Shown here: positions 3,001 to 23,527 of the stretch, in pieces
Layout: every line of letters starts with the position of its first letter
How positions within the stretch are numbered: position 1 is the first letter of the stretch
Assembly (NCBI GenBank): GCA_017501255.1
Contig: JAFVXE010000034.1
Span: 1-64,000 of the forward strand
Reading direction: 5' to 3'
Length of the DNA: 64,000 nt
DNA from: Clostridia bacterium
GTDB lineage: Bacteria; Bacillota; Clostridia; Christensenellales; Aristaeellaceae
Program-made: the position numbers and the translations under genes
Notes under the pieces: model-generated
Told to the model about the DNA's origin: nothing
Seen by the model: the letters and a program-made list of their open reading frames with translations, nothing else
Databases searched by the model: none

Positions 3001-4215
3001 ACCGATGAGCAGACCGGCAAGCGGTTGGCCGGCGCCAAGTTCGCTCTCTACGAGGGCGCTCTGGGCACCTACGATGAAAGCAAGCCCGTCGAAACCTGGG
3101 TATCCGATCTGAATACCAAGATGCTCACCGGCCTGAAGGTTGGTCAGACCTACACCATCGTTGAAACGGAAGCGCCCTCCGGCTACGCCATGATGACGCC
3201 CTTCCAGTTCACCGTGCAGCTGACCGACATCCCCGGCACCTACCGTGCCTTCTCCGTCAGCAACTGCCACGTGTATCGTTTCCGCAAGCTGGATAGCTCC
3301 AACAACGGTCTGGTATACGGCGCCAAGCTGGCTGTGCTGGATGGCAACAATGCTGTTATTGAAAGCTGGGTAACCAGTGATGCCAACGGCGGCTGGCACG
3401 AAATTGCTGATCACCGTCTGGTGGCTGGTAAGGAATACACGCTGGTTGAATTGGAAGCTCCCTTCGGATATGAGCTGGCCGATCCGATCACCTTCTCTGT
3501 GGATGAAGAAAAGGGTATGTTGGTTGTCAACGACAGCTACACTGCCAAGGCAGAAGTGGTCATGTATGACAGCCCCATCCCCGAAGCAACGCCCACGCCC
3601 GAACCCACCACCACCTCCTACAGCGTAACCAAGCGTTGGGAGGATAAGGACAACGTTCTGGGTCTGCGTCCCAGCAGCATCACGGTGCATCTGTACCGGA
3701 AGCTGCGCACCGAGGCGGAGTATCCTGCCGCTGCCTTCATGACGGTTCATATGAACAGCAATGGCAAGAACGTTTGGAACTTCACCTTCGAGGATCTGCC
3801 GCGCCGCAGCGAGGATGGCATCCTGTATGACTACACCATCGTTGAGGAGCCGGTAGAGGGCTATGTGACCTCTTACCTGAACAATGGTAAGACGATCGTG
3901 AACAGCATCCCCGAGGAGGACTTCCCGCCCACGCCTACGCCCACCCTGCCCTATGTGACGCCTACTCCCAGCCCGATGCCTCGCGTGCCTGCCGGCGTGC
4001 AGTTCATCGATGGCGAGTGGATGTACATCGATGAATACGGTATCCCGCTTGGCGGTATCCCGCTGACCGGTGATAACACCAACTTCATCCTGTGGGGTAT
4101 GGCCATTGGCCTGCCGCTGCTGGTTGCCGCTCTGGCTGCTGTGGAAATCCGCCGCCGCAAGAAGCTGCTGGCTGCTGCTGAGCAGGAGGAAGAAGTGGAA
4201 GACTTCGAGGAGTAA
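1..4215 (+). CDS. Cna-B repeat LPXTG-like surface adhesin (5' end outside window)
   Basis: The reading frame is already open at base 1, so the N-terminus lies upstream. The visible ~1404 residues hold ten Cna-B type repeats of about 90 residues, each opening with a K-T/D-W-x-D motif followed by RP and closing with a YTITE-like motif. Two SpaA/prealbumin-like domains follow (roughly residues 1000-1190, from VEFIKTDEQTGKRLAGAKF), then an eleventh Cna-B repeat (VTKRWEDKDN), a Pro/Thr-rich stretch, the sorting-like motif IPLTGD, one membrane helix and RRRKK. Such repeats are known to self-stabilise by Lys-Asn/Asp isopeptide bonds and to act as rigid stalks. Wall attachment by a sortase is inferred; a sortase gene lies immediately downstream. 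An acidic tail (EQEEEVEDFEE) beyond the basic cluster is unusual. The ligand is unknown. Confidence 0.9.
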   Translation, partial: TGLDVYKAGTKITYTVDEVTLGEDGKYVSYKPDDYTKEITGTAAAGFLVTNKHEPEKITISGTKTWDDANDQDGIRPTSITINLLANGTKLTSKNVTANDGWKWSWTGLDKYKDGKEIEYTITEDAVNGYKTAINGYDVENTHKPELVEVVGSKTWNDADNQDKKRPESITINLLADGEKINSQTIKPDTNGNWPGWKFEDLPKFKAGKEINYTITENAVAGYTTSVTGYNVENSYKPGVTSVTVSKTWDDDNNRDGIRPTSITFNLLADGEKFGSKTITPDADGNWPTCTFDNLPINKVGKVGQKVIYTVTEDVVDGYTATFEDDAATGYVFTNTHKITTTNISGTKTWDDANDQDGIRPESITIRLLANGTAVRSAEVKADEKGEWKYTFTDLPVNENGKAITYTISEDPITLSSEKTKTGYTTTIDGFNVKNTHVPETTEVTVTKDWDDADNQDGKRPESITIRLYANGNEVDSETISADANGKWSFTFTDLPKFAAGKEIVYTISEDAVDKYTTEIDGFSVTNTHVPETTEVTVTKTWTDADDQDGYRPDSIIINLFANGEKVKSETISVDTEGNWSHTFTELPKYAAGKEIAYTITEEAVAEYTTVIDGFNVENTHKPEVVEVSGTKTWTDADDQDGYRPTSITINLLSDGHVVKTAVVTEADGWSWNFTELPKYRDQGVEIVYTITEEAVAEYTTDIAGYDVTNTHEPEVVEVSGTKTWADADNQDGKRPASITINLLADGVIVKTATVTEADGWSWNFTELPKYRDQGIEIVYTITEVAVAEYTTQINGYDVTNTHEPELIEVAGSKTWNDADNQDGKRPTSIVIKLMDGATVVKALTVTEADGWKWSFTDLPKYRPGAVGDEIKYSIVEELDQASAAEYTATVDGYNITNSYTPETVQISGSKTWNDLNNKYLKRPDSVTIRLLADGTEIDHKVVTEADNWSWTFTGLPKYKAGEVGKEVVYTITEDLVTGYITTVEDYNVTNAMNMVEFIKTDEQTGKRLAGAKFALYEGALGTYDESKPVETWVSDLNTKMLTGLKVGQTYTIVETEAPSGYAMMTPFQFTVQLTDIPGTYRAFSVSNCHVYRFRKLDSSNNGLVYGAKLAVLDGNNAVIESWVTSDANGGWHEIADHRLVAGKEYTLVELEAPFGYELADPITFSVDEEKGMLVVNDSYTAKAEVVMYDSPIPEATPTPEPTTTSYSVTKRWEDKDNVLGLRPSSITVHLYRKLRTEAEYPAAAFMTVHMNSNGKNVWNFTFEDLPRRSEDGILYDYTIVEEPVEGYVTSYLNNGKTIVNSIPEEDFPPTPTPTLPYVTPTPSPMPRVPAGVQFIDGEWMYIDEYGIPLGGIPLTGDNTNFILWGMAIGLPLLVAALAAVEIRRRKKLLAAAEQEEEVEDFEE
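172..2980 (+). repeat. Ten tandem Cna-B coding repeats
   Basis: About 270-300 nt units repeat ten times inside the adhesin gene. Each begins near a KTW/KDW-encoding stretch. Some neighbouring units are almost identical at nucleotide level, for example around 1880-2100 and 2150-2400, which suggests recent expansion. Such an array is prone to copy-number change and to assembly error. Confidence 0.85.
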
Positions 4216-4254
4216 TCCACGAAACAAATGAATACCCGGTTCGGATGAACCATC

Positions 4255-4285
4255 AGGGGAGTCGCTGAAAAGCGGCTCCCCTTTT
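4255..4285 (+). terminator. Rho-independent terminator of the adhesin gene
   Basis: A 12-bp stem (AGGGGAGTCGCT with AGCGGCTCCCCT, one G-T pair) closes a GAAA tetraloop and is followed by TTTT. It lies 40 nt after the stop codon. Confidence 0.85.
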
Positions 4286-4304
4286 CGTGTGTGGGTGAAG
4301 GTGA

Positions 4305-4390
4305 GGCAGGGGGACGCAGTCCCCCTGCACCCCCTGCTAAAGGGATCATATCCCTTTGGAATCCCGGTTCTGCCGTGCTTTGCACGGCAG
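4305..4390 (-). repeat. Modular hairpin repeat, copy 1 (reverse orientation)
   Basis: Three successive hairpins: a GGCAGGGGGA/TCCCCCTGC stem, an AAAGGGAT/ATCCCTTT stem followed by GGAATCCC, and TGCCGTGC-n3-GCACGGCA. This is the reversed module order compared with copy 2. It is nearly identical to the copy at 35707-35790. The interval between this copy and copy 2 (4391-4508) is AT-rich and I see no gene in it. Confidence 0.75.
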
Positions 4391-4508
4391 GTGGGGATGG
4401 ATAATCTATGTGAATAAAGATTCAATATTTGCTAATTCGATATTGCGAAAGAACAATAAATAATAAATAAAGAACAAATCAAAGAAACAAAACGTCCTAT
4501 ATTCTCCT

Positions 4509-4590
4509 TTGCGCCCATGAAATGGGCGCAAGAAAGGGATTCCAAAGGGCCATTGGCCCTTTGGCGGGGTGCAGGGGCAGCGCCCCTGCC
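4509..4590 (+). repeat. Modular hairpin repeat, copy 2
   Basis: Reference copy in forward orientation. Module A is the palindrome TTGCGCCC-n7-GGGCGCAA. Module B is GGGATTCC followed by an AAAGGGCC/GGCCCTTT stem. Module C is a GTGCAGGGGC/GCCCCTGCC stem. It lies just upstream of the sortase promoter. Confidence 0.8.
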
Positions 4591-4628
4591 TCACTCCCAG
4601 CCATCATCTTTTCTTTTCTGAAAAGGAA

Positions 4629-4637
4629 TGGTATAAT
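4629..4637 (+). promoter_or_regulatory. Extended -10 promoter for the sortase gene
   Basis: TGGTATAAT is a perfect extended -10 (TGnTATAAT), 30 nt upstream of the chosen start. The matching -35 position is weak (T-rich), as expected for extended -10 promoters. Confidence 0.65.
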
Positions 4638-4667
4638 AAAGCAAAGCTGTGCCTGAGGAGGGTGCTT

Positions 4668-6887
4668 ATGGCAAAGAAAACGAAAAAACCAAGCGGCTTT
4701 GGCGGCTTGTATGTGATGATTGCAATCTGTGTTGCGTGTAGTTGTCTGGCTGTTTTTGGCCTGATGGGTAAGTTGGAAACCTATCAGGAAAGCGAGGATA
4801 CTTATGCGGATTTGCAGCAGGCAGCTTTGACCATCGTATCTGAAGAGGAAGCTGCCCAAGAGGCTGCTTCGCCCATGCGTACCATTTCGCCGCAGGAACT
4901 GCTGGCTGCCAAGGAAAGCGGCGAAATGCAGTATTCCAGCGGTGATTCCGATGAACCGGTGCCGTCCTTCAGCCCCACGGGTGAAGTGACGGAAAGGGAG
5001 TCCCAAGGGCCGGAGGAAGAAGAAAACGTGCTGGATGAAGCGCTGGTTTGGATGCTGAAAAACCAGACAGAGGATGAACTGATCACCGACCGTCCCAGAG
5101 CGACCGCCACGCCTGCGCCTTCCCAGACCCCTGCGCCTGCTGCAACGGAAGTTGTTGCGGAAGCAACAGCTGAACCTGTGCAGGAACCAACGGAAGCACC
5201 GCTACCTGATACCGGGTTGCAGACGCTTGCCCCGATGGTGACGGAAGCGCCTGCGGCTGCCAGCGAACCAGTGGTAACACCTCAGGCCACTCCTGCTGCC
5301 ACCGCCGAGGATGGCACGGTTGTGACGATTGAACCCGCCAACACCGATGCAGCAGTGAGCACACCGGCCCCCACCCCCGAACCCACCAATACCCCGGAAC
5401 CAACCCCCACGCCCACCATGACCCCGGTGCCCACCCCCACAGTGCCGCCGTATATTCCCACCAGCGGCATCAGCATGGAGCGGGCGGTGACCATTACCAG
5501 CGCCCGCTATTCGGTGGATTTCGACTATCTGACCACCATCAATGACGAGGTAGTGGGCTGGATTTATCAGGAAGGCACGCCCATTAACTATCCGGTGCTT
5601 CGTGGTGAGGATAATGAATACTACCTGACCCACCTGTTCAATGGTGTGGTCAACTCCTCCGGCTCTGTGTTCATGGACAGCGGCAATTCCGCCGCCTTCA
5701 TTGACAGCGCAACCTATCTGTACGGCCACCACTCCAAAGGCGGCGGTATGTTCGCCACGTTGAGCGAATATCTGGATCCGGCTTATTATGAGGCCCATCC
5801 CCAGTTCCTGCTGGTAACGCCCTTTATGGATTATCAGGTGGATGTGTTTGCCGGTATGGCAACGCTGGTGGAGGACGAGGTAAGCTGGCGGCCCAAGACG
5901 CTGGAAACCGAAGCGGATATGAACGAGTTCCTTGACTTGATTATGTCTCAGAGCTTCATTCAGGCGCCGGAGGATAAGCTGCCCCAGTGGGGCGATAAGC
6001 TGCTGGTGCTGGTCACCTGTACCAACATCCGCAGCGATCAGCGCTACGTGATTTACGGGCGTATGCGGCCCATTGTGTATCAATCCGACGATGAGAGCGT
6101 GAACGCTTCCAAGCAGGAGATGGATCAGCGGCCGACAGAAAACGGCTATGTGACCATCGATGGCGTGGGCACCTTTATGACCTATGCCCAGAACGATGAA
6201 CTCTGGCGCAAGATGCGCTATGAAGCGGGCGGCGTGAACAAGTACCGCAACTTCGGCGATGGCGGCTGCGGCCCCACGGCGGTAGCCATGGCGATTGCCA
6301 ACCTGTGCCCGGTGGAGGAACTGCCCCGCCTGATCGGTTATGCCAATACAGAGGTGGGCTATACCTTCTGCGATTGTTCAGTGAACCGGTATTTCTGCAA
6401 CCATAAGCACGCCCAGTATCAGCTGAGACGGGGCGAGGAATTCCTGCGGTATATGCCGCTGGCGGTTGCCAATTTTGCCACCGGCAATAATATCTGGGAG
6501 ATCAAGTCCCGCAGTGCCAACAGCGGCACCAATATGCGCTTCCTGGAAAAGATCTGCGCCATTTATGGAATCCGTGTCAGCGTTATTGAGGATGTGGATG
6601 AGCTGATCCGGCGCATGGAGGAAGAAAAGGTGGACGGCATCAAGCGCATGGCCATCAGCTGCGCCATCAAGGGCAGCCCCTTTACCAAGAATGGTCATTT
6701 CGTGCTGATCTGCGGGCTGGATGATGAGTATCTGTACTTCCTTGACCCGCTGCGGCGGGATGACTACAGCGATTGCGATCGCAAGGGCTATGCGGAGGTG
6801 CTGGCGCCGGGCGTGGTGCGCATCAGCCGGGAAAACGCCCATGATTGCAATCTGATCCCCTTCTACCTGTTGGAAAAGGTACAGTAA
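4668..6887 (+). CDS. Class B sortase fused to a C39-like cysteine peptidase
   Basis: 739 residues; start chosen at ATG 4668 behind GAGGAGG. Order: short basic N-terminus, one membrane helix (~residues 11-33), an acidic then long Pro/Thr/Ala/Glu-rich linker to ~residue 265, a class B sortase domain (~270-470), and a papain-like C39_2-type domain (~500-739). Visible sortase residues are His354 or His355 in YGHHSKGGGMF, Cys451 in LVTCTN and Arg459 in DQRY. The second domain shows Cys534 in GDGGCGPTAVAM, His677 in KNGHFVLICG and Asp693 in FLDP, a complete Cys-His-Asp triad. A single-pass, outward-facing membrane enzyme is inferred. The upstream adhesin is the obvious candidate substrate. The C39 part could trim precursors, cleave peptidoglycan peptides or process the sortase itself. 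The two assignments are strong; the purpose of the fusion is unknown. Confidence 0.9.
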   Translation: MAKKTKKPSGFGGLYVMIAICVACSCLAVFGLMGKLETYQESEDTYADLQQAALTIVSEEEAAQEAASPMRTISPQELLAAKESGEMQYSSGDSDEPVPSFSPTGEVTERESQGPEEEENVLDEALVWMLKNQTEDELITDRPRATATPAPSQTPAPAATEVVAEATAEPVQEPTEAPLPDTGLQTLAPMVTEAPAAASEPVVTPQATPAATAEDGTVVTIEPANTDAAVSTPAPTPEPTNTPEPTPTPTMTPVPTPTVPPYIPTSGISMERAVTITSARYSVDFDYLTTINDEVVGWIYQEGTPINYPVLRGEDNEYYLTHLFNGVVNSSGSVFMDSGNSAAFIDSATYLYGHHSKGGGMFATLSEYLDPAYYEAHPQFLLVTPFMDYQVDVFAGMATLVEDEVSWRPKTLETEADMNEFLDLIMSQSFIQAPEDKLPQWGDKLLVLVTCTNIRSDQRYVIYGRMRPIVYQSDDESVNASKQEMDQRPTENGYVTIDGVGTFMTYAQNDELWRKMRYEAGGVNKYRNFGDGGCGPTAVAMAIANLCPVEELPRLIGYANTEVGYTFCDCSVNRYFCNHKHAQYQLRRGEEFLRYMPLAVANFATGNNIWEIKSRSANSGTNMRFLEKICAIYGIRVSVIEDVDELIRRMEEEKVDGIKRMAISCAIKGSPFTKNGHFVLICGLDDEYLYFLDPLRRDDYSDCDRKGYAEVLAPGVVRISRENAHDCNLIPFYLLEKVQ

Positions 6888-11817: not shown

Positions 11818-14800
11818 TTACAGTTCCCACATCCGGCGGATAGCTTCCATGCAGCGGACGGCGGCGGTCAGGTCGTCGTCGGTCTGCTGGTGCATCTCGT
11901 TTTCGTATACAGTCGCCAGCTCCATTTCAGCGCTGGGCATCAGGGCGGGGGAACCATCGGCGGTTTTGTGGTGGTACAGGCCGCCCAGCAGTCTTTCGGC
12001 TGCCTGGGGGAACAGCTTGATAAAGCTCAGCAGATAATCCCGGAGCAGGTTGGGCCGCTGGCTCACCGGCATATCGGGGAAGGTGGCATTCCACTTTTCC
12101 ACGCTGCGCAGGGTGCTCAGCAGCATCCCATCGTCGCTGATGAGGCCGGAGGCCACTTCCAGCTTGGGTTCACGGCTCTGCACCGGCAGCAGCACCCGCA
12201 GGGGATGGCCGGGCTTGAGGACGTTCAAAGCCAGCTGACAGAGTTTGTTGCGGCTGTCTGCGCCGATGGTGTTCAGGAACTGGCCGCCGTTACCGGCGAT
12301 GCACAGCTCCATGCGGGCGGGCAGCAAAGGCGCCAAATCTGCATCCTGACCGGCCCGGTGCAGCATCACGCCGCACAGATAGAACAGGAAGCCAAGGCCG
12401 AGAAGAAGCAAGCATTCGGTGTAGCACAGGCTGCCGTGGTTGCGCTCATCCTCCAGTGCTTTGGCAATCTGCTCGGGATAGGATGCGAAAAAGTCATCCA
12501 TCAGCAGCATACATTTCTGGCGGCTGCGGCTGGAAGCCACGCCTTTGCGCATGGTCTGGCACAGGGCGGCAGCGGCAGCCTTCACCTCAGGATCTGCCTT
12601 CTGGAAATCCGCCTCAAAATCGTCGATATGGCCCTGGGCAATGGAGGTGAACAGCATCTGGCGGCAGCCCAGCAGCAGAGAGGCTTCCGCAGCAGCGCTG
12701 CCGGAGGCATTCAGCCACAGGCTCAGGTCGGCGGTGCCGCCGCCGATATCCAGATTCAGATAGCCGCCGGTGGCATTCACTTCGTTACGGCTGCGGAAAT
12801 ACAGGCCCGCTGCCTGGTTTTCGGTGGCATAGAGAACAGAGGGGGTGCCCTGGGTCAGCGGCAGGCCGGATTCGTGGGATACCTCCCGGGCAAGGCCACG
12901 CATCAGGTTCAGATAGCCTTCCTGACGGTGGGGCGGCATGGCATTGGGGGTTGAGATGCGCCAGCTGATGGAGGGTGCCCCATGGAGACGGGCGGATAGG
13001 CTGGCTTGCAGCATCACTTGTTTGAGCATCAGCCGCAGGCAGGCCATCACCCAGGATTCTTCGCTCCATTTCAGGTCGTAGTAGAGGGTTCCCTCGTTCT
13101 TTTCGTACAGGGTGCGCAGGCTGGCAGGATAGTAAATATGGCCGTCGATCAGCGGGCGCTGCCACTTTTCGGGATCGTCGGAGAACAGATCCATCACGCT
13201 GTAGAAGGTGGCCTCCCGCTGGCTGCCGTAGAGCATGGCAGAGGGGGCGATCAGTTCGTTCTCCAGCGCAGAAAGGGGGGCAGGGTCGGGGCTGATGAGG
13301 ATACCGTGGAGGCCGCCCGGCAAAGAGGCAGGCTGAATCCGGTCTCCCTGCCGGAGCATGACGGTGGTGGAAATGCTGCCGAAATCCAGACCCACAGCGG
13401 CGGCGGAATCCCGGCGGATCCGGCGGGCGGGCAGATCATTGGGCAGTACGCCAGCGGACAGGCTGCCCAGACGGATGGGCAGATAAGCCGGGAAGGTGCC
13501 GGTAGACAGGGTCTGCCAGCGGCGCAGCTGGGTGGAAGGGGCAGCGTCCGGGGCAGTGCGCGTTTCGCCTGCGATCCATTGATCCTCATGAAGGGCGCAT
13601 ACCTGCACATCTCCGGGCTGGTGGGTATGAACAAAGTACTGCTTCCACACATCCCCCTGCAAGCGGATGTTGGGCCAGACGGTGACCATGGGCAGCTGCG
13701 CCGCAGGGAAGCGGAAGGCAGCGCCTTTTTCCGGCTGGGGTTTCAGGGGATAGTTGCGGCACAGGATGACGGCGGTGGAGGTGCCGTCGGGCATCTGCCG
13801 GTGAATGCGTAGGGAAACATCGATGGACTGTCCATCTTCGTTCCACTGGGCAGAGAGGTCTTCCAAGGGAAGCGCAGGGGCTGGGTCAGCAGTCATCAGG
13901 GATTTTGCCAGCGCTGGGCTGACCGGCGGCAGGAAATACAGGGCGGGCTGACCCTTGCCGGTGGGCAGGGCGCAGGCGGTGGTCAGTTGCAGATCGCCGA
14001 AGGGAGAACGGGTTGCGCCTTCCATCAGCATCAGGCAGTCGGACAGCGGCTCCCGGAGAGCTTCCTCCTCCTGAATGCCCAGTTTTTCCCGCAGAAGGGC
14101 ATGGGCAGCCATGCGTTGCCCATCCTCCGGGTAGGTCAGGGTGATGCGCTGGCGGGCGGGCGCCGTGGCATTCTGATAAATCTGCTGCCACTCCTGAATG
14201 AGGGCAGGTACCTTGTCCATCATGCCGGTGCGGCCCTGAATCTGGGCGTGGAGCTGGCCAAGGGTGGCGGCCATATGGCTGCGCCATTCCGGGTCGAAAC
14301 GATCCAGCAGATGGGTTTCCTTGGCAATGGCCGCCAGGGCTTCCGCTTCGCCCTCTGCGCCGGTGGGTTCCAGCAGGCAAACGCTGCTGAGACGGGCAAA
14401 GGGCACGCCGTTGTAGGTGTAGAAGGTCTGAGGCTGGGCGGCGGGCAGCTGGGCATTGGCCGGCAGATAGGCCCGCAGCAGGGGATTCTGTCGTGGGTCG
14501 GTATCCTGCGGGGTCTGGGTGTGGCAGGCAATGCGGCAGGTGTCGCCGGTGCGGTTCAGCAGCCCGTAGGCAGCCTGTACCCGGGTGCGCAGCTGGAAGA
14601 TGGCTTCGCTGTCACCACTGAGCAGCTTTTCACGCCAGGGCTGGCGGGTGGCCAGCAGGTCATCCACAAAGCGGTTCAGGGGGGAGCACAGCCGGGCGGC
14701 CGGGTCATACAGCGGGCTCTGGCAGGCGCTGTCTTCGCACAGGGTCATGAGAAGCCGCAGCCGGGGCAGCAGCAGGGACAGCTGCTGTTCATCCAGATAG

Positions 14801-15462
14801 GCGCAGGGATCCAGAAAACGCTTGTGCTGACGGTCGTACCAGCGCACCGGGGTGGGCAGGATCTGGGATAAGTCATCCATATCCGCCGCCGGGGTGAGAA
14901 TGGTCTGGCGGGACAGAAGGCACAGGGGGTACCGTGCGTTGTGCTCGCCGTCCTGACGGGTCAATACGGCCACTTGCAGGCCGTCCCGGGCCCGAACAGG
15001 GGTCATGGCCCCCAGCACCATGGCGGCAAAGTTGCCGGAGCGCTCGCTCATGGGCTCGATGGTCAGGGTGGGGCAGCCAGGGGTGCGCTCCATGTCCTCC
15101 CAGAGCAACAGCAGGGCCAGCAGGGCACGGAAATCGATCATTTCCTGATGTCTCATGGCCAGTTCGTTGGGCAGGCGGCTCAGGCGGCGCAGCTGCTGTT
15201 CCGCTGCCAGCACATCTGGGATGGCAAAGCCCACATCCAGCCCGGGGGTCTGCATATTCTTGGCCATGCTTTCCAGCCATTCGTGGGGCTTCTGGCTGCC
15301 ATCGGTCTGCAATCCGGGCACGGAACGGTAGCCCATGTGGAAGCCTTCATCCATATGGGGCAAAAGGGTGGTATAGGATGTGCTCTTGTCCAGCGCGCGC
15401 TTGCGCTGATCTTCGCTGAGGTAAGCCGTGGTTTTGCGGCTTTGCTTGTCTTTTCGTTTCAT
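11818..15462 (-). CDS. Giant actin/Hsp70-fold (ASKHA) ATPase with long N-terminal region
   Basis: 1214 residues. The start is ATG 15462, overlapping the upstream tubulin-like gene's stop as ATGA, which implies translational coupling. Residues 1 to ~690 match nothing I recognise. From ~690 an actin/Hsp70-like nucleotide-binding fold begins: phosphate-1 motif VGLDFGSISTTVML (690-703) and phosphate-2 motif LNLDIGGGTADLSLWL (~902-917), with typical 210-residue spacing. There is no signal peptide or membrane helix, so it is cytoplasmic. Members of this superfamily are chaperones, filament formers or sugar kinases; sequence alone does not choose. Pairing with a tubulin-like protein, a membrane protein and a lipoprotein suggests an envelope-associated machine. 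A relation to the SrfB family of large ASKHA proteins is possible but unverified. Confidence 0.75.
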   Translation of the reverse strand: MKRKDKQSRKTTAYLSEDQRKRALDKSTSYTTLLPHMDEGFHMGYRSVPGLQTDGSQKPHEWLESMAKNMQTPGLDVGFAIPDVLAAEQQLRRLSRLPNELAMRHQEMIDFRALLALLLLWEDMERTPGCPTLTIEPMSERSGNFAAMVLGAMTPVRARDGLQVAVLTRQDGEHNARYPLCLLSRQTILTPAADMDDLSQILPTPVRWYDRQHKRFLDPCAYLDEQQLSLLLPRLRLLMTLCEDSACQSPLYDPAARLCSPLNRFVDDLLATRQPWREKLLSGDSEAIFQLRTRVQAAYGLLNRTGDTCRIACHTQTPQDTDPRQNPLLRAYLPANAQLPAAQPQTFYTYNGVPFARLSSVCLLEPTGAEGEAEALAAIAKETHLLDRFDPEWRSHMAATLGQLHAQIQGRTGMMDKVPALIQEWQQIYQNATAPARQRITLTYPEDGQRMAAHALLREKLGIQEEEALREPLSDCLMLMEGATRSPFGDLQLTTACALPTGKGQPALYFLPPVSPALAKSLMTADPAPALPLEDLSAQWNEDGQSIDVSLRIHRQMPDGTSTAVILCRNYPLKPQPEKGAAFRFPAAQLPMVTVWPNIRLQGDVWKQYFVHTHQPGDVQVCALHEDQWIAGETRTAPDAAPSTQLRRWQTLSTGTFPAYLPIRLGSLSAGVLPNDLPARRIRRDSAAAVGLDFGSISTTVMLRQGDRIQPASLPGGLHGILISPDPAPLSALENELIAPSAMLYGSQREATFYSVMDLFSDDPEKWQRPLIDGHIYYPASLRTLYEKNEGTLYYDLKWSEESWVMACLRLMLKQVMLQASLSARLHGAPSISWRISTPNAMPPHRQEGYLNLMRGLAREVSHESGLPLTQGTPSVLYATENQAAGLYFRSRNEVNATGGYLNLDIGGGTADLSLWLNASGSAAAEASLLLGCRQMLFTSIAQGHIDDFEADFQKADPEVKAAAAALCQTMRKGVASSRSRQKCMLLMDDFFASYPEQIAKALEDERNHGSLCYTECLLLLGLGFLFYLCGVMLHRAGQDADLAPLLPARMELCIAGNGGQFLNTIGADSRNKLCQLALNVLKPGHPLRVLLPVQSREPKLEVASGLISDDGMLLSTLRSVEKWNATFPDMPVSQRPNLLRDYLLSFIKLFPQAAERLLGGLYHHKTADGSPALMPSAEMELATVYENEMHQQTDDDLTAAVRCMEAIRRMWEL

Positions 15463-17555
15463 AGGGTGCGATCCTCCATGACGGCGGCCAGCAGCGTGGC
15501 GGTAAAGGCAGCCATGACGCCGCCGGGGGTCTGGCTCTTGCACACGCCGCCCCCCAGCGCAGCAATGGCATAGGGCGTGGTGCGCCGGTCGGGTACGGGG
15601 CTGAGAATCAGTTTGTTCAGCTTCTTTTGCAGGGTGAGGGAGGAGCGGCTCATGGCATCCGAATCCCGGTCCTCCGGGTCAGTACCGAACTGGGTGAGCA
15701 GCTGGGAAAGGGCATTCATCAATTCCGCATTCAGCAGACCGTTGGCGGGTACTTCTCCCTTGCGCACGGAGGCAGGGGCCGGGTAATGGGCAGGCAAGTC
15801 CGCACGGACGGCAGCCCGGGCATCCTCTTCCACCAGATGCAGCCGCAGGGCCAGTTCATCCCGCAGAAGGCGCAGGGAGGCCAGCTTTTCCTCCTGACGG
15901 CGCACATCCTCCGGGGAGGTCAGGTGCCGCTCCTGATGGGTGAGCCGGTGGAGAATCTCCTCCTGGTCGGCCACCACCTGATCCTGATGGGCCAGCTGTT
16001 CCCGGGCCGTATGCCGGGCGGAAACCAGCATTTCCAGCCAGCTTTCGCCGCCAACCAGGGGCAACAGCCGGTCGCATTCGCTCTGGGCGGAGGCTCTGTC
16101 GTGAAGCAGATCATCGTACCCGGCAGCCTGAGGATCGGTCATCTGCTGCTGCGCCCGCTTGAGGATGGACTGGCGGTAAGCAGCGGCGGCTTCCTCCTGC
16201 AGGGTTTCCTCCTGCTGGCGGGGACGCATGGTAGGCGGAATGGTGCGGGTGAGCTGCACCATCCAGTTGGCATAGAAATTGAAGAACTGATACAGGGCGG
16301 TCAGCAGCTTTTCCAGCTGATCCCGCTGGGTGGCGTTCATACGGTTGATATCGGAAAAATAGGGGGCGGTGTAGCCGATGTTCTTCGCTTCCCTGCCGTT
16401 GCCGCTGATGAGCTTGCGCAGGGTGGGGTAGCATTCGCCAAAGAACAGCCCGGCGGCTTTCAAAAGCCCGCCGTAGCCGATGCGGTAGCGTTCGCCGTCG
16501 CTGTCGAAGCTCTGCCAGCAGAAATCCGGGGTGTGCCACTGGTAGTAGTAGCAATCCATGTTGTGGGCGTGCTCGCCCCGCATGGGGGTACGCATGAAGG
16601 CTGCGATACAGCGGGTGGCCAGCCATTCCAGCATATGGGCGTCGTTTTCCTGGCTCTGGGAGCCGGTGGAGTAGATGCGGGTCTGTACAAAGGCTTCCGG
16701 GGGCAGGCCCAGTAGGTACATGGCGTCGAATACGCCGTCCCTGTCCTCCTCGCTGGAGCGTATCATGCCGGTCATGCCGTAGTACTGCAAAGCGGTGCGG
16801 GCCTTATCCGGGAAGTCCGCACTCTTGACCACGATTTCCAATTCCTCATTGTGGGAGGACGGGGGTACTTTGTAGTAGGGCAGCATCAGCATGGAAGCCA
16901 GCTCGAAACGGCGCTGACGATCCTGAAAACGCTGGTGCAAAAACCGGGCCAGGGCGGGGATGCCGCTGGCGCCCGTGCCGCCGAAAATACTGCCGCAGAG
17001 AATCACCTTCACCTGCTCACCGGCAGCGATTTCCGCATCCATCTGATCCAGCAGGGCGTTCATTTCGTCCGGCTGTCCGGCAGCCCGCAGGCCATCCAGA
17101 GAGGATAGCAGGTCGGAGAAGAACAGCACGCCCAGATCCGGGTGGCCACGGAAACCCTCGCTGTATTCCAGGGAGGCCTCCGTTTTGCTGAACAGGGTGC
17201 GGCTCAGCAGCCTGTCACCGGCGTGGTTTTCCGTCATCCGCTGGACGGAGGTGGCCCGGCGGCTCAGGTTCATATTCCAGCGGCGAAGATCCAGCTGGGT
17301 CTGGAAGCCGCGGCGCACCTGCTGGCTTTGCTCAAAGGCACGTCGCACCTGCTCATAAGCTTCACAGGCACGGCCTGCACGGGTGGTGTTGCCGCAGGCG
17401 GAGTCCACGTCCACGCTGAGCAATGTGAGCTTGGGCAGGGAAACCTGCTTCCCTTCCGGCGTGACGGTATAGAAGGCGTCGGCAGCGGCGGCGTAGACGA
17501 TGCTTTCCAGAATCTTGTTGCCGGTGCCGCCGATGGCCAGTACATAACAGCCCAT
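15459..17555 (-). CDS. Tubulin/FtsZ-superfamily GTPase (Tubulin_2-like)
   Basis: 698 residues. The N-terminus CYVLAIGGTGNKILES gives the first nucleotide-binding loop. CGSIFGGTGASGIP at 187-200 corresponds to the tubulin/FtsZ signature GGGTG[S/T]G. LSVDVDSACGNTT near residue 50 resembles the next tubulin-fold loop. These match the distant Tubulin_2-type family rather than FtsZ itself, which is ~380 residues and has a different tail. Residues ~510-600 are charged and heptad-like, consistent with a coiled coil, and the C-terminal ~60 residues are Ala/Gly-rich. It lies 18 nt after the membrane-protein gene and overlaps the ATPase gene by 4 nt. GTP-dependent polymerisation is plausible but only inferred. 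Confidence 0.8.
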   Translation of the reverse strand: MGCYVLAIGGTGNKILESIVYAAAADAFYTVTPEGKQVSLPKLTLLSVDVDSACGNTTRAGRACEAYEQVRRAFEQSQQVRRGFQTQLDLRRWNMNLSRRATSVQRMTENHAGDRLLSRTLFSKTEASLEYSEGFRGHPDLGVLFFSDLLSSLDGLRAAGQPDEMNALLDQMDAEIAAGEQVKVILCGSIFGGTGASGIPALARFLHQRFQDRQRRFELASMLMLPYYKVPPSSHNEELEIVVKSADFPDKARTALQYYGMTGMIRSSEEDRDGVFDAMYLLGLPPEAFVQTRIYSTGSQSQENDAHMLEWLATRCIAAFMRTPMRGEHAHNMDCYYYQWHTPDFCWQSFDSDGERYRIGYGGLLKAAGLFFGECYPTLRKLISGNGREAKNIGYTAPYFSDINRMNATQRDQLEKLLTALYQFFNFYANWMVQLTRTIPPTMRPRQQEETLQEEAAAAYRQSILKRAQQQMTDPQAAGYDDLLHDRASAQSECDRLLPLVGGESWLEMLVSARHTAREQLAHQDQVVADQEEILHRLTHQERHLTSPEDVRRQEEKLASLRLLRDELALRLHLVEEDARAAVRADLPAHYPAPASVRKGEVPANGLLNAELMNALSQLLTQFGTDPEDRDSDAMSRSSLTLQKKLNKLILSPVPDRRTTPYAIAALGGGVCKSQTPGGVMAAFTATLLAAVMEDRTL

Positions 17556-17573
17556 AGGTTCTCCTTTCCGCCG

Positions 17574-18215
17574 TTACAGGCGTTTGAAAAATGCGTGTTT
17601 GCCGCTGATGGCAGGGGGGGCAGCCAGTCGGAAGCAGACCATGGCAGCCAGCACATTCAGCCCGTAGGCAGGAAAATACACAAGATAGTCCCACAGGGTG
17701 CGGCCAAAGATATGCTGAACGCCGCACAGCCAGACAATGAGCGCTGTCATCGCATTGACGGCCATGATCAGCACCATGTTCAGCCGGTAGGTGCGTTTGG
17801 CACGGCGGCTCAGCTTGGCGGCGTTGATGGCCTTGGAATGGCGCATCCGCCACCACAGCTGGATGATCAGCGTAACGGCCCATGCCAGCAGGAAGCAGAT
17901 GGCAACAAACAGCCGCCAGTGGTCATCCCGCAGGGTGAGGGCAGCCTGCCAGAGGGCCGGGTCGCTGGCAGTAGGCAGGGCCGCTTCCGCAGCCGCTGCT
18001 TCCAGCGGTGCAAGATGCAACGGCAGCAGCTTCACAAGGGTATCCGCAATGGCGGGGGCGGTATTTGCCAGCTTGAAGGGATACACCAGAAACAGCCCTG
18101 CATACTGCCACATTAGGGGCAGTGCAAAGCAGATCAGGTAGCACAGAAGCGGCTTGAGACCGCCGGAGGTGCGCAGGCGCAGCCGTTTGGCGGGCTTGGC
18201 AGCGATGGTGGACAA
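17574..18215 (-). CDS. Four-helix membrane protein of the tubulin-like locus
   Basis: 213 residues. Four hydrophobic segments at about residues 23-45, 103-122, 144-166 and 175-198; a basic N-terminus (KPAKRLRLR) and a basic loop (RMRHSKAINAAKLSRRAKR) between helices 2 and 3 should be cytoplasmic. I recognise no family. Thirty bases separate it from the lipoprotein gene and 18 from the tubulin-like gene. Its position between a surface lipoprotein and two cytoplasmic NTPases makes it the natural membrane anchor of the system; that role is inferred from context. Confidence 0.75.
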   Translation of the reverse strand: MSTIAAKPAKRLRLRTSGGLKPLLCYLICFALPLMWQYAGLFLVYPFKLANTAPAIADTLVKLLPLHLAPLEAAAAEAALPTASDPALWQAALTLRDDHWRLFVAICFLLAWAVTLIIQLWWRMRHSKAINAAKLSRRAKRTYRLNMVLIMAVNAMTALIVWLCGVQHIFGRTLWDYLVYFPAYGLNVLAAMVCFRLAAPPAISGKHAFFKRL

Positions 18216-18244
18216 GGCGGGTTCCTCCTTCCGGTGAGGGGCGC

Positions 18245-20317
18245 TCAGGTGAGGGGCAGCTGGTTCTGGGGCGCTACGAAAACATCCAGCTGGAAGTAGA
18301 CAAAGGGCAGGGTATCGATAGCGGCGGCATCCCGCAGCTGGGTGAACAGTTCACTGAGGCGGGGGGCGGCGTATACAGGGGGACAATCGGGAATCACCGT
18401 CTCCCGGTAGGTTTTGCCGGAGGTATCACCCCAGGCGTGCCAGAACTGACCGGGTACGTTGTCGCTGGTACGGCTGTGCTCGGTAAGGGCATCGGCCATC
18501 TGCTGCCAGGCGGCGATCTGTTCGTTGGTGATCACCGCATTCCACTGGCTGATCCAGTCAACGGCGGGCCAGCTGAGCTGCTGCCCGGTAATATCCGCAC
18601 GGAGCAGCAGCCGGTAGTAACCGGGGGTCAGGTCGGCGGCATTGCAGGTGAAAGCCGCTTCCAGGGTTGTGCCGTCTGCGCTCAGGCTCAGGGGCTGGGC
18701 GGTGAAGGGCAGGGCGCCGGTTTCATCCGTATAGGTGAATTGATAGACGGTATCCCGCAGCGTCAGGGACTGGACGCCCTGGGCGGGCTGATAATCCGGG
18801 GTGTTGGGCAGGGTATCCGTCAGCAGCAGGGAGGAAACCCCTTCGATGCGCAGGCTGGACAGCTTGCTGGTATCCAGCTGGAGGCCGCCCTCCAGCGCAT
18901 TTACCGGCCAGGAAACCGCAATGCGGCAGGTGCCGCTCTGGTCGCTGGCCAGCGCCACGGTGGGCTGGGCCTTGTCGGTGAGCAGCATACCGGTGCCGTT
19001 GGTCAGGGCGATGGCAGCGCCATCGTTGGTGTAGGTATCCACTCCGTGCCGCTGGATGGTGGTCTGCTCATAGGCAAAGGTGAAGGGCTGCTGGGTGATG
19101 GTCTCTCCGCCGATGGAATAGGTCAGCTGGCCTTTTTCCGGACCCCGGAGCCCCTTGAGGGCCGGGTCGGTATCCAGCTTCTGGTTCAGGGCGGCTGTGT
19201 AGCTTTCCACCTGCGCCGGGCTGCCGATGACCAGCATCAGCAGGGTGCGGGGCATGGGCAGGGGCCCTTTGACCAGGTTCTTGTTCTGCTGATAGTCCAG
19301 CCGTCCCCAGATGAAGGGCTGGGAAAGGTCGGCAGCGTTGATGGTGTGAATCTGGCCCAGATAATCCAGCTTGAGGGCATAGAGCTGCACAGAAAGCCCC
19401 TGATCAAAGATGCCCCGTTCACTGAGCAGCTGCTGGAGGTAATGCACCGGCGTGCCGTCAATGGCGGTGCCGGACAGGCGGCGCAGGGTCAGGGGGTCGC
19501 AGGTGATTACCGACAGGCGGCTCAGATCCAGATTGGCAATGGACTGCATCAAGGGGCTGAAATCATCCGTCAGCAGGCGGCGGATAGCATCCGGGTCAGC
19601 CTTGGCATCGTAGCTGGCGATGAGGCTGTCCAGATAGTCGCTCATGGGCTGAAGCTGGTCAGGGTTTTCCAAAAGCGCTTTCTGCCCCTTGGCCAGCAAG
19701 GCGGGCAACTGGTTCATCTGGGGACTGTAGAGGGAGTAGAAGCTGCCCTCCATGTTTTCTGCGGAAAAGGAGGAAAACACGGTGGGCATGGGGTCGATGG
19801 CATAGGTGAGCAAGTCCCGGCGCAGGGAGCGCAGGCTGGCGGCGCTGCCTTCGGTGGCAAGACCGCTGGAAAGCAGATCCTCATCGGTGATGTGCTCGTT
19901 GCCGCTGCGAAGGACCCGCACACGGCTGCCCTCAGCTGCGGACAGCATATTCCGCAGCAGGTTTTCATACCAGCCGGTTTCGTTTTCGTAGCGGTAGTGG
20001 AAGCCGCCCTCCCGGTAGCGCTTGCTGCGGTGGGGATACAGGCTCTCGGCGGAAGGGTTCACGCCGCCCATCACCTGGGAGGCATCCAGCCAGAGATCCA
20101 CCTGCAAAGGGCTGTTCTGACCGGCGGCAGCGGAAGGCTGCAAGGCAGCAATTTCGGCGGCAGGCATCACAAGCTGGCGCAGATCCGGCAGATTGGATGC
20201 GCCTGTGGGCTCCGTGGGGGTGAAAGCAGCTGGCAGCGTTTCCATCAGGGAACAGCTGCACAGGCAGAAAAGGGCGGTAAGGCAGGCAAGGAACTTGAGC
20301 GTTCGTCCAAGGCGCAT
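18245..20317 (-). CDS. Large lipoprotein of the tubulin-like locus, possible vWA-like segment
   Basis: 690 residues with AAGGAGGGG before the ATG. A lipoprotein signal (hydrophobic residues 9-20, lipobox LCSC with Cys22) predicts attachment to the outer face of the membrane. Right after the linker, VDLWLDASQVMGG (residues 76-88) resembles the DxS-type metal-site strand of von Willebrand A folds, but the full MIDAS set is not obvious to me. The C-terminal half looks beta-rich. I recognise no named family. As first of the closely spaced set it would be the extracytoplasmic sensor or ligand-binding part. The start and lipoprotein call are strong; the fold is uncertain. Confidence 0.78.
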   Translation of the reverse strand: MRLGRTLKFLACLTALFCLCSCSLMETLPAAFTPTEPTGASNLPDLRQLVMPAAEIAALQPSAAAGQNSPLQVDLWLDASQVMGGVNPSAESLYPHRSKRYREGGFHYRYENETGWYENLLRNMLSAAEGSRVRVLRSGNEHITDEDLLSSGLATEGSAASLRSLRRDLLTYAIDPMPTVFSSFSAENMEGSFYSLYSPQMNQLPALLAKGQKALLENPDQLQPMSDYLDSLIASYDAKADPDAIRRLLTDDFSPLMQSIANLDLSRLSVITCDPLTLRRLSGTAIDGTPVHYLQQLLSERGIFDQGLSVQLYALKLDYLGQIHTINAADLSQPFIWGRLDYQQNKNLVKGPLPMPRTLLMLVIGSPAQVESYTAALNQKLDTDPALKGLRGPEKGQLTYSIGGETITQQPFTFAYEQTTIQRHGVDTYTNDGAAIALTNGTGMLLTDKAQPTVALASDQSGTCRIAVSWPVNALEGGLQLDTSKLSSLRIEGVSSLLLTDTLPNTPDYQPAQGVQSLTLRDTVYQFTYTDETGALPFTAQPLSLSADGTTLEAAFTCNAADLTPGYYRLLLRADITGQQLSWPAVDWISQWNAVITNEQIAAWQQMADALTEHSRTSDNVPGQFWHAWGDTSGKTYRETVIPDCPPVYAAPRLSELFTQLRDAAAIDTLPFVYFQLDVFVAPQNQLPLT

Positions 20318-20353: not shown

Positions 20354-21727
20354 TCAGCGCCGCATTTGACCCATTTGGTCGTATAGGTTCAGATAGGCTT
20401 CGTAACGCAGGTTTGCACCGTACTGGGCAGCCCGGGCAATGCAGAACAGGGGATCCTTGGGGTCATCGCACAGGCGGCGCACAGCGTCGGCAGCGGCGGC
20501 GATGTTGCCGGTGGGCACGGTTTCGCCGGTTTGGGGAATCACCAATTCGGGCATGGCGGTGCAATGGTAGCAGATCACCTGCGTACCGCAGGCCATGGCT
20601 TCCAGAAGGGTCATGCCCATGGTTTCGCCCTGGCTGAGGGAAATGCAGACATCCGCAGCCGTGTAGAGCACGCACAGATCCTTCACGTTGGCGGTGCGGG
20701 GCAGACCCAGCATATAGTAGGGCAGCGCATTGATCTGGGATTCCGTCAGCCCCACCGGCACCACGCAGTAGTCCTCGCCCAGCTCACGGGCCAGTTCGAT
20801 CAGATCCTGCAGGCCCTTGCGCTCATCCCACACCGCCGCCACGCTGAGCACCAGCCGCCGCCCGTTCAGCTCATCCAGCCCGTAGAACAGGGCGATATCC
20901 TGCATATGCCGTTCATCGGCGCAGGGGGCGAAGGTGTTCAGGTCGATGCCGTTGGGCAGGGCATAGATGGGATAGCGGCCTAAGAAGGAGCGGCTGGCCT
21001 GCTCCTTGAGCCACTGGGAGGGGGTGGTGAAAACCAGGTTCCGCAGCCCGGTGATCAAGTCCTTTTTTTCGGTGAAGTTGCGGGCGCTCTGGTCCCGGAG
21101 CAGGCTGATGGGGTAGGTCTTTTTCAGGGGACAGTGGTTGCAGCGCTTCTGCCACAGGTTACACTGGGTGGGCGCATGGGGGGAGGGAGCATCTTCCTCG
21201 TTCAGATAAGGCTCTATGGGATAGTGGTAGTAGGCGCAGTGACCGGTGTAGGGCCAGCAGTCATGCAGTGTCCATACCACGGGAATGTCGGTTTCTTGCA
21301 GATAGGCAAACAGGGTGGGCAAATGCAGGTAGTAGCCATGCAGGTTATGCAGGTGAATCAGATCCGGGTCAAACTGCCGGAGCTGTTTGATGAAACGTCG
21401 GGTGGCGTGGCGGCTGTAAAAGCCGCTGCGGTCGGTGATGCGGCTGAGACCGGCGTGAATGAGCACGCCCAGAGAAGTGGAATGATGGTGGATCAGCCGG
21501 GTGAGTTTGCCAAAGGCGCGCTTGGGTGCGGCGCTGCGGCGGTAGGAAAGGGACAGGGTTCCATCGGGGGTATCGCCCACTCGGAGGCTGGGAATATCCG
21601 GCGCAGGGGTGCCCCGGCTGTAGCACAAAAGCACCTGATGCCCCTCCTTTTGAGCAAGGCGGCACAGGTCGGTGGCGATGCGGCCGGTGGACAGGTTGGC
21701 AGTAACGTTGATGTGAGCGATACGCAT
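20354..21727 (-). CDS. Family 4-type (GT-B) glycosyltransferase
   Basis: 457 residues from ATG 21727 (GGAGG upstream). The N-terminus MRIAHINVTANLSTGRIATD is typical of GT4 enzymes, and the C-terminal half has the nucleotide-sugar E-x7-E motif in GETMGMTLLEAMACGTQV. A Cys/His cluster (HCAYYH ... CNLWQKRCNHCPLKK, ~residues 150-190) is common in one polysaccharide GT4 subgroup. It probably adds a sugar to a cell-surface polysaccharide at the cytoplasmic membrane face. The gene ends 36 nt before the lipoprotein gene, so it may be the first gene of the tubulin-like operon. Confidence 0.85.
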   Translation of the reverse strand: MRIAHINVTANLSTGRIATDLCRLAQKEGHQVLLCYSRGTPAPDIPSLRVGDTPDGTLSLSYRRSAAPKRAFGKLTRLIHHHSTSLGVLIHAGLSRITDRSGFYSRHATRRFIKQLRQFDPDLIHLHNLHGYYLHLPTLFAYLQETDIPVVWTLHDCWPYTGHCAYYHYPIEPYLNEEDAPSPHAPTQCNLWQKRCNHCPLKKTYPISLLRDQSARNFTEKKDLITGLRNLVFTTPSQWLKEQASRSFLGRYPIYALPNGIDLNTFAPCADERHMQDIALFYGLDELNGRRLVLSVAAVWDERKGLQDLIELARELGEDYCVVPVGLTESQINALPYYMLGLPRTANVKDLCVLYTAADVCISLSQGETMGMTLLEAMACGTQVICYHCTAMPELVIPQTGETVPTGNIAAAADAVRRLCDDPKDPLFCIARAAQYGANLRYEAYLNLYDQMGQMRR

Positions 21728-22447: not shown

Positions 22448-23476
22448 TTACCAGGTAGCGCCAAAGCCGAACACGGACCAGTGATCGGTGTGCAGCTCAT
22501 ACTGGCACAGAGGGTCGGTATGCTCGCTTTCGGGCAGCATGGACATATTTTCCTGCAAGTGCTTGCGGGTATCGGTGGTAATCTGGTGGTTGGACTTGTT
22601 GCTGTCGTACAGGTAGGTGTACCGCTTGACGGTGTTGGACATATTGCCCTCCACCGTGGTAACGGCGTAGATGCCGCCGCCCCGGTCCTCCACCTCCACC
22701 ACAGAACCGATGTGGGTGGTCAGATAGGCTTTGCTCATATCCACGTAGATGACGGTATAGCCGGGCTTGGGCACGCCCACAAAACGGCCCAGCTTGTTGA
22801 AGCCGTCGTACTGGTTGCCCACCTGACCTTCCCGGAAGAAAACATTCGTATAGTCGCCTTCCGGGTCGATATCCTTTTCTTCGATGGGGTCAAAACCGGC
22901 GGCGTTGGCGCAGTAGATGGTGAACACCGAGCACCAGCCCACCTCTTTCTTCTTGCGGTAGTACCACTTGGCGTACTGGTTGTACTTGGGCAGCCGCTGC
23001 CGGGCCACGGAATAGTACTCCCGGTTGAGCACATAGACGTAGTTCTTGGCGATCTCGCTCATGGATTCATCGGAGACGGATACCAAGATGGATTTCTCAC
23101 CCTCCGGGGACTGCCAGCGCACGGTGGTTTCGCCGCTGGCTTTGCCGGTCATCAGGCCGTCCTGGGCTACCGTGACGATGCTTTCGTCATCGGAGGAAAA
23201 GGCGCCCTCCGGGGCGGGCAGCGGCGTTTCGGCCTGCTCATCAAAGGGGATCACGCCGGGAGATACATAGGGAAAGTAGGCGCTGTTGCCGGTGCGCAGC
23301 TGGTAACATCCGGCGGTAATGGCAGCCTCGGCAGGGGTTTGCAGCTGGCTGAGACGCTCCGCAAACAGGGCATCGGTTTCCTCATCCGCAAAGGCGGCGG
23401 GCATCAGGCAGCAAAGGGCCAGCACCAAAGCGGCGAGGCGGCAGAGGGGCCGGTGGGAAAAGTCATTGTGAAACAT
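22448..23476 (-). CDS. Secreted protein with Big2-like and CHAP/NlpC-like domains
   Basis: 342 residues from ATG 23476 (AGGAGA upstream). A signal peptide ends near PAAFADEET. A Big2-like bacterial Ig segment (~residues 85-130: DDESIVTVAQDGLMTGKASG) precedes a ~180-residue CHAP/NlpC-P60-like domain with a candidate catalytic Cys in VGWCSVFTIYCANAAG and His in THIGSVVEVEDR, followed by a GGGIYAVTTVEGN strand. This pattern is that of cell-wall amidases or endopeptidases acting on peptidoglycan peptides. The hydrolase assignment rests on motif spacing alone. It has its own extended -10 promoter. Confidence 0.75.
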   Translation of the reverse strand: MFHNDFSHRPLCRLAALVLALCCLMPAAFADEETDALFAERLSQLQTPAEAAITAGCYQLRTGNSAYFPYVSPGVIPFDEQAETPLPAPEGAFSSDDESIVTVAQDGLMTGKASGETTVRWQSPEGEKSILVSVSDESMSEIAKNYVYVLNREYYSVARQRLPKYNQYAKWYYRKKKEVGWCSVFTIYCANAAGFDPIEEKDIDPEGDYTNVFFREGQVGNQYDGFNKLGRFVGVPKPGYTVIYVDMSKAYLTTHIGSVVEVEDRGGGIYAVTTVEGNMSNTVKRYTYLYDSNKSNHQITTDTRKHLQENMSMLPESEHTDPLCQYELHTDHWSVFGFGATW

Positions 23477-23527
23477 AGGATTGTTCTCCTTTGGAAGGGT
23501 GCTGTTGGGCATAAAAATTCACCTTGT

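Follow-up and report, generated by a model that had tools for sequence, protein, structure and literature searches.

Four adjacent genes, encoding a lipoprotein (LIP), a membrane protein (TM), a predicted tubulin-superfamily GTPase (TUB) and a giant protein with a predicted actin/Hsp70 fold (ASK), recur in the order LIP-TM-TUB-ASK in Bacillota, Cyanobacteriota and Bacteroidota, and in two lineages TUB and ASK are naturally fused. We analysed this locus in a 64,000-nucleotide stretch (the window) from a gut bacterium of the Clostridia, family Aristaeellaceae (assembly GCA_017501255.1, contig JAFVXE010000034.1). The recurrence of one gene order in three phyla, together with the TUB-ASK fusions, points to an undescribed, membrane-linked machine of cytoskeletal type.

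All four genes lie on the minus strand. LIP (690 residues, 18245..20317) is an open reading frame with a lipobox, and is separated by 29 nt from TM (213 residues, 17574..18215). TM starts with a TTG codon and is predicted to have about four transmembrane helices, seen as two strong and two weaker hydrophobic stretches. After a gap of 18 nt follows TUB (698 residues, 15459..17555), a protein of FtsZl1/Tubulin_2 type, which overlaps ASK (11818..15462) in the sequence ATGA. ASK, a member of the ASKHA (actin/Hsp70/FtsA) superfamily, is 1214 residues long when counted from its ATG. The linkage of the four genes is well supported.

The tubulin-like, actin-like and vWA-like proteins

TUB carries both glycine loops of the tubulin superfamily, the T1 loop GGTGNK (residues 9-14; 17514-17531, minus strand) and the signature (T4) loop GGTGASG (residues 192-198; 16962..16982, minus strand) within CGSIFGGTGASGIP. 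The window protein matches Pfam Tubulin_2 (PF13809) with E 1.6e-5 and 24.8 bits, against a curated cut-off of 27. Out of 32 members of the TUB family, 26 match Tubulin_2 (best E 4.6e-8) and 19 the FtsZ/Tubulin GTPase model. When the TUB family profile was compared by hhalign with a profile of canonical clostridial FtsZl1, built from eight proteins of seven loci, the two aligned from the T1 to the T4 loop (191 columns, E 4.8e-8). A PDB search with the single TUB sequence found no match and a TUB profile search nothing useful, and NCBIfam had no match for the window proteins. On sequence grounds, TUB is therefore well supported as a divergent FtsZl1/Tubulin_2 member. No FtsZ_C domain was matched by Pfam in the window TUB or its relatives, and the sole PF12327 match of the genome lies on another contig (C5), away from this locus. 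As a true FtsZ is thus encoded elsewhere, TUB is not the division tubulin.

The C-terminal ASKHA domain of ASK (residues 686-1119; 12106..13407, minus strand) contains phosphate-1, phosphate-2 and adenosine motifs, and the protein carries VGLDFGS from residue 690, LNLDIGGGT from 902 and CIAGNGG from 1054. No Pfam ASKHA model matches the window protein, and a PDB search with the single sequence found no match; a PDB profile search matched Hsp70 weakly. An AlphaFold model built from 35 sequences had a pLDDT (predicted local distance difference test) of 86.6. In this model, residues 686-1113 superimposed on MreB with a VIA Z score of 22.6 (root-mean-square deviation 3.2, 284 residues aligned), and the same domain matched MamK (Z 22.1), DnaK (Z 20.5) and FtsA (Z 19.9). 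The top Foldseek match was DnaK/Hsp70 (E 9.5e-8, probability 1.00). An actin/Hsp70 fold of the C-terminal domain is thus well supported by the model, in which the N-terminal region of about 685 residues also folds mostly with confidence. SrfB, a candidate relative, was set aside since its Pfam model matched no ASK member, a result that does not prove the two unrelated. The first-pass annotation had described four coupled minus-strand genes with the ATGA overlap, and had assigned the tubulin and actin/Hsp70 folds to the 698- and 1214-residue proteins. The gene positions and the overlap were confirmed, and both fold assignments hold at the level of profiles and of the model, respectively.

LIP has the lipobox L-C-S-C22, an N-terminal alpha/beta part and a C-terminal beta-sandwich. 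Its metal-ion-dependent adhesion site (MIDAS) of vWA type is degenerate in the window: in VDLWLDASQVMGG, with D78-x-S80-x-V82, D78 and S80 are retained and the third MIDAS residue is lost; the sequence SVITCDP is also present. The cyanobacterial LIPs have a canonical DxSxS MIDAS-type motif (DGSGSM) followed by a TD motif (TDLE), as in the example YLDGSGSMLGYVK with VIITDLQQ. The window LIP and the shorter LIPs of other Clostridia can be aligned along their length. A hhalign comparison with vWA of a set comprising the cyanobacterial LIPs and those of loci L097 and L098 gave a score of 34.1; 40 column shuffles reached at most 18.3, and unrelated profiles scored 13 to 17. The intact metal-site motif in cyanobacteria suggests that LIP is probably vWA-like, with a degenerate site in the window copy. 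We use the term 'vWA-like' because Pfam found no vWA domain in the LIPs and the fold searches were uninformative: Foldseek and VIA returned weak matches to the C-terminal beta-sandwich only (Z below 6), and the lack of a vWA chain among them does not count against a vWA fold.

Recurrence, fusions and reduced loci

The gene set is conserved well beyond this genome. A single-sequence search of 200 sampled genomes of the Aristaeellaceae found TUB in 41 and ASK in 64. Scanning genome contigs, with genes in the relatives' loci called by codon usage, we identified 32 loci, 28 of them in Bacillota; 25 of these 28 have LIP-TM-TUB-ASK and the other three are cut by contig ends. Because some of these loci themselves contributed to the second-round profiles, their E-values partly reflect that construction; the first-round searches had also given matches. 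The full set is present in two other clostridial families, in one of which TUB is split into two frames. In the other of these two families, locus L097 has genes for a MotA/ExbB-like (E 8e-5) and an OmpA-like protein (E 1e-5) downstream of the quartet (13514-15974). One Prevotella keeps the same order, with a lipoprotein that has an SGSM motif; TM is recognised there by its position and its four helices rather than by profile.

TUB was found in 21 of 292 sampled cyanobacterial genomes. TM precedes TUB at all 26 cyanobacterial loci and ASK follows at 24; LIP is adjacent at 23, often divergently transcribed. Cultured hosts include Picosynechococcus and Gloeothece, where the genes are on plasmids and mostly annotated as hypothetical. 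Besides the copy described below, a Xenococcus genome carries the operon twice more, there with LIP. At loci L125-L131, also cyanobacterial, a conserved gene pair lies downstream of ASK; its products are a protein with a Cys-rich, zinc-ribbon-like N terminus and a membrane or coiled-coil protein, apparently with a common C-terminal domain.

A single open frame spans TUB and ASK in genomes G185 (1721 residues) and G163 (1692 residues), and an 896-residue frame in G107 comprises TUB and part of ASK. Loci L048 and L049, from nearly complete genomes, encode such a fusion of about 1700 residues, in which the tubulin signature loop is lost. In an ASK tree the locus types (A, B and C) fall into separate groups, A and C together, and the cyanobacterial sequences form one group; the tree was made by a quick method, and some of its branches are long and some of its forks weakly supported. 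Type C is a reduced form in which the profiles find neither LIP nor TM. At seven type C loci, which come from four genera, genes for a nucleotidyltransferase and a GDP-mannose dehydratase-like protein precede TUB-ASK, and six of the seven also have a polyprenyl sugar transferase gene. The GGTGxxG sequence of TUB does not vary among the aligned type A, type B and cyanobacterial proteins and two proteins of type C, and the signature loop GGTG(S/T/A)G is lost in the other type C members.

Possible roles of the TUB-ASK pair

We infer that TUB binds ASK directly in the cytoplasm, where one might recruit the other or control its assembly, as FtsA does with FtsZ, possibly with polymerisation. TM would tie the pair to the membrane, and LIP would connect the complex to an envelope partner through a vWA-like, metal-dependent binding domain on the outside of the cell. 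In the Aristaeellaceae such a complex would most likely position or regulate the assembly of surface glycans or the envelope. As a whole, a chromosomal, membrane-anchored and nucleotide-controlled TUB-ASK scaffold for envelope or surface-glycan assembly is the reading we favour, tentatively and at somewhat under an even chance. More doubtful is the proposal that TUB and ASK co-assemble at the membrane, beneath a vWA-like lipoprotein, as a fixed composite machine that in some cases is a single polypeptide; if true, it would be a previously undescribed cytoskeletal system in at least three bacterial phyla.

A link to glycans is suggested by a GT4-type glycosyltransferase gene (20354..21727, minus strand), overlooked in the first-pass annotation, which lies 36 nt upstream of LIP in the same direction. 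In 14 relatives a homologue immediately precedes LIP, and the gene is likely the first of the operon in the genus of the window organism. The sugar-related genes ahead of TUB-ASK at the seven type C loci, the lipobox of LIP and the MotA/ExbB-like and OmpA-like genes of L097 also speak for an envelope or glycan role. The initial proposal of a membrane-remodelling or envelope-assembly machine stands as regards the two folds and the gene coupling; the role itself is plausible given the lipoprotein, the membrane protein and the neighbouring glycan genes.

Several observations weigh against the scaffold. The glycan neighbours are specific to the Aristaeellaceae and were not noticed at cyanobacterial loci. 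The glycosyltransferase may be no more than a neighbour. The glycine and phosphate motifs are decayed at most of the seven type C loci, and both GTP and ATP motifs at several (L056-L058 and L048), which suggests that nucleotide cycling is not always needed. In addition, the tubulin assignment of TUB is sequence-based, and any filament contacts are hypothetical.

The main alternative, which we consider unlikely, is a module for conflict or immune-type signalling that would work like the DO-GTPase/GAP1 systems: LIP or TM would sense an insult, and TUB and ASK would assemble and set the threshold of an effector. Kaur et al. 2020 (PMC7159879) connect tubulins, or HSP70 with GrpE, to vWA proteins and membrane proteins in systems predicted to act in conflict. 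At the Xenococcus locus L083 (6708-7985), moreover, the gene directly before TUB-ASK encodes a TM that carries a fused caspase domain (Peptidase_C14, E 6e-20). The plasmid location of some cyanobacterial copies, the patchy distribution outside the Aristaeellaceae and the presence of paralogues within one genome would also suit such a module. However, the chromosomal position is stable throughout the genus of the window organism, no variable effector gene is evident at clostridial loci, PADLOC had no match for the four window proteins, and TUB was unmatched in 50,697 phage records. Neither a TRAFAC DO-GTPase nor GAP1 was recognised in the four window proteins and two flanking genes, or among the neighbours scanned in relatives.

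We give a still smaller chance to a general membrane-remodelling or vesicle-forming machine with no specific glycan role, as proposed for FtsZl1 (Tubulin_2)-vWA operons (Makarova and Koonin 2010, PMC2875224). The profile placement of TUB in the FtsZl1 branch, the vWA-like lipoprotein, the membrane protein and the OmpA-like partner in L097 are consistent with it. The published proposal is itself drawn from genome context, however; dynamin, ESCRT and BAR domains were not recognised, and the conserved glycan genes of the Aristaeellaceae suggest a narrower role. In a last alternative, ASK would act on TUB or the lipoprotein complex as a chaperone of Hsp70 type or an assembly factor, with TUB a switch rather than a polymer. 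This would agree with the Foldseek ranking and the PDB profile match but is improbable, as MreB and MamK are the best VIA matches, Pfam recognised no GrpE or DnaJ partner among the neighbour genes scanned, and it did not recognise a substrate-binding domain of Hsp70 in ASK, whose N-terminal 685 residues were not compared separately. Roles in plasmid partition (TubZ/ParM) and in the canonical divisome were rejected, as the locus is chromosomal, FtsZ is encoded separately and no DNA-binding adaptor was recognised.

The favoured scaffold and its alternatives could be studied in cultured hosts, Picosynechococcus PCC 73109, PCC 7003 and PCC 8807 and Gloeothece PCC 7822, and the natural fusions make direct cooperation of the tubulin and actin folds outside cell division testable. 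Elsewhere in the window, a 1404-residue frame with Cna_B repeats, open at the window start, is followed by a sortase-domain protein in a surface-protein locus (1-6887). A secreted Big_2-domain protein (22448-23512) is encoded upstream of a rubrerythrin-like gene, a neighbourhood kept in the genus.

Comparison with known systems

In the divisome, FtsZ and FtsA pair a tubulin-fold GTPase with a membrane-linked actin-fold ATPase. TUB and ASK would form a similar membrane-linked pair but belong to separate families; ASK has an extra N-terminal region of 685 residues, and a separate FtsZ is encoded in the genome. In predicted fold and nucleotide motifs, the C-terminal domain of ASK resembles MreB, MamK and Hsp70, and ASK is far larger than these proteins.

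A literature search, which did not cover subscription papers and supplements, found the FtsZl1-vWA and DO-GTPase systems, none with the present gene set, and no paper assigning the FtsZl1-vWA operons a tested function. The DO-GTPase/GAP1-N2 systems share tubulin-like and Hsp70-fold proteins and membrane association with the present locus, and their vWA domains have a vWA-like counterpart in LIP. Their tubulin and HSP70 themes reportedly do not overlap, and they are reported to be nearly absent from cyanobacteria (PMC7159879), where the present set occurs.

A resemblance to published distant FtsZ/tubulin-vWA systems, suggested in the first-pass annotation, was supported. Like the FtsZl1-vWA operons, the locus combines a predicted tubulin of that branch with membrane proteins and a partner that is vWA-like and membrane-associated; L097 also has an OmpA-like protein. 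No P-loop GTPase or Ser/Thr kinase was recognised among the adjoining genes scanned, some flanking genes being left unscanned. Unlike the FtsZl1-vWA operons, the locus has four genes in a fixed order, and TUB has as its core partner the giant ASKHA protein, which is absent from the main text of PMC2875224. The seven ordinary clostridial Tubulin_2 loci (eight proteins) had no match to ASK, LIP or TM. The ASK-linked TUB is therefore a separate branch of the FtsZl1-type systems with partners of its own, newly marked by the giant ASKHA protein at its core.

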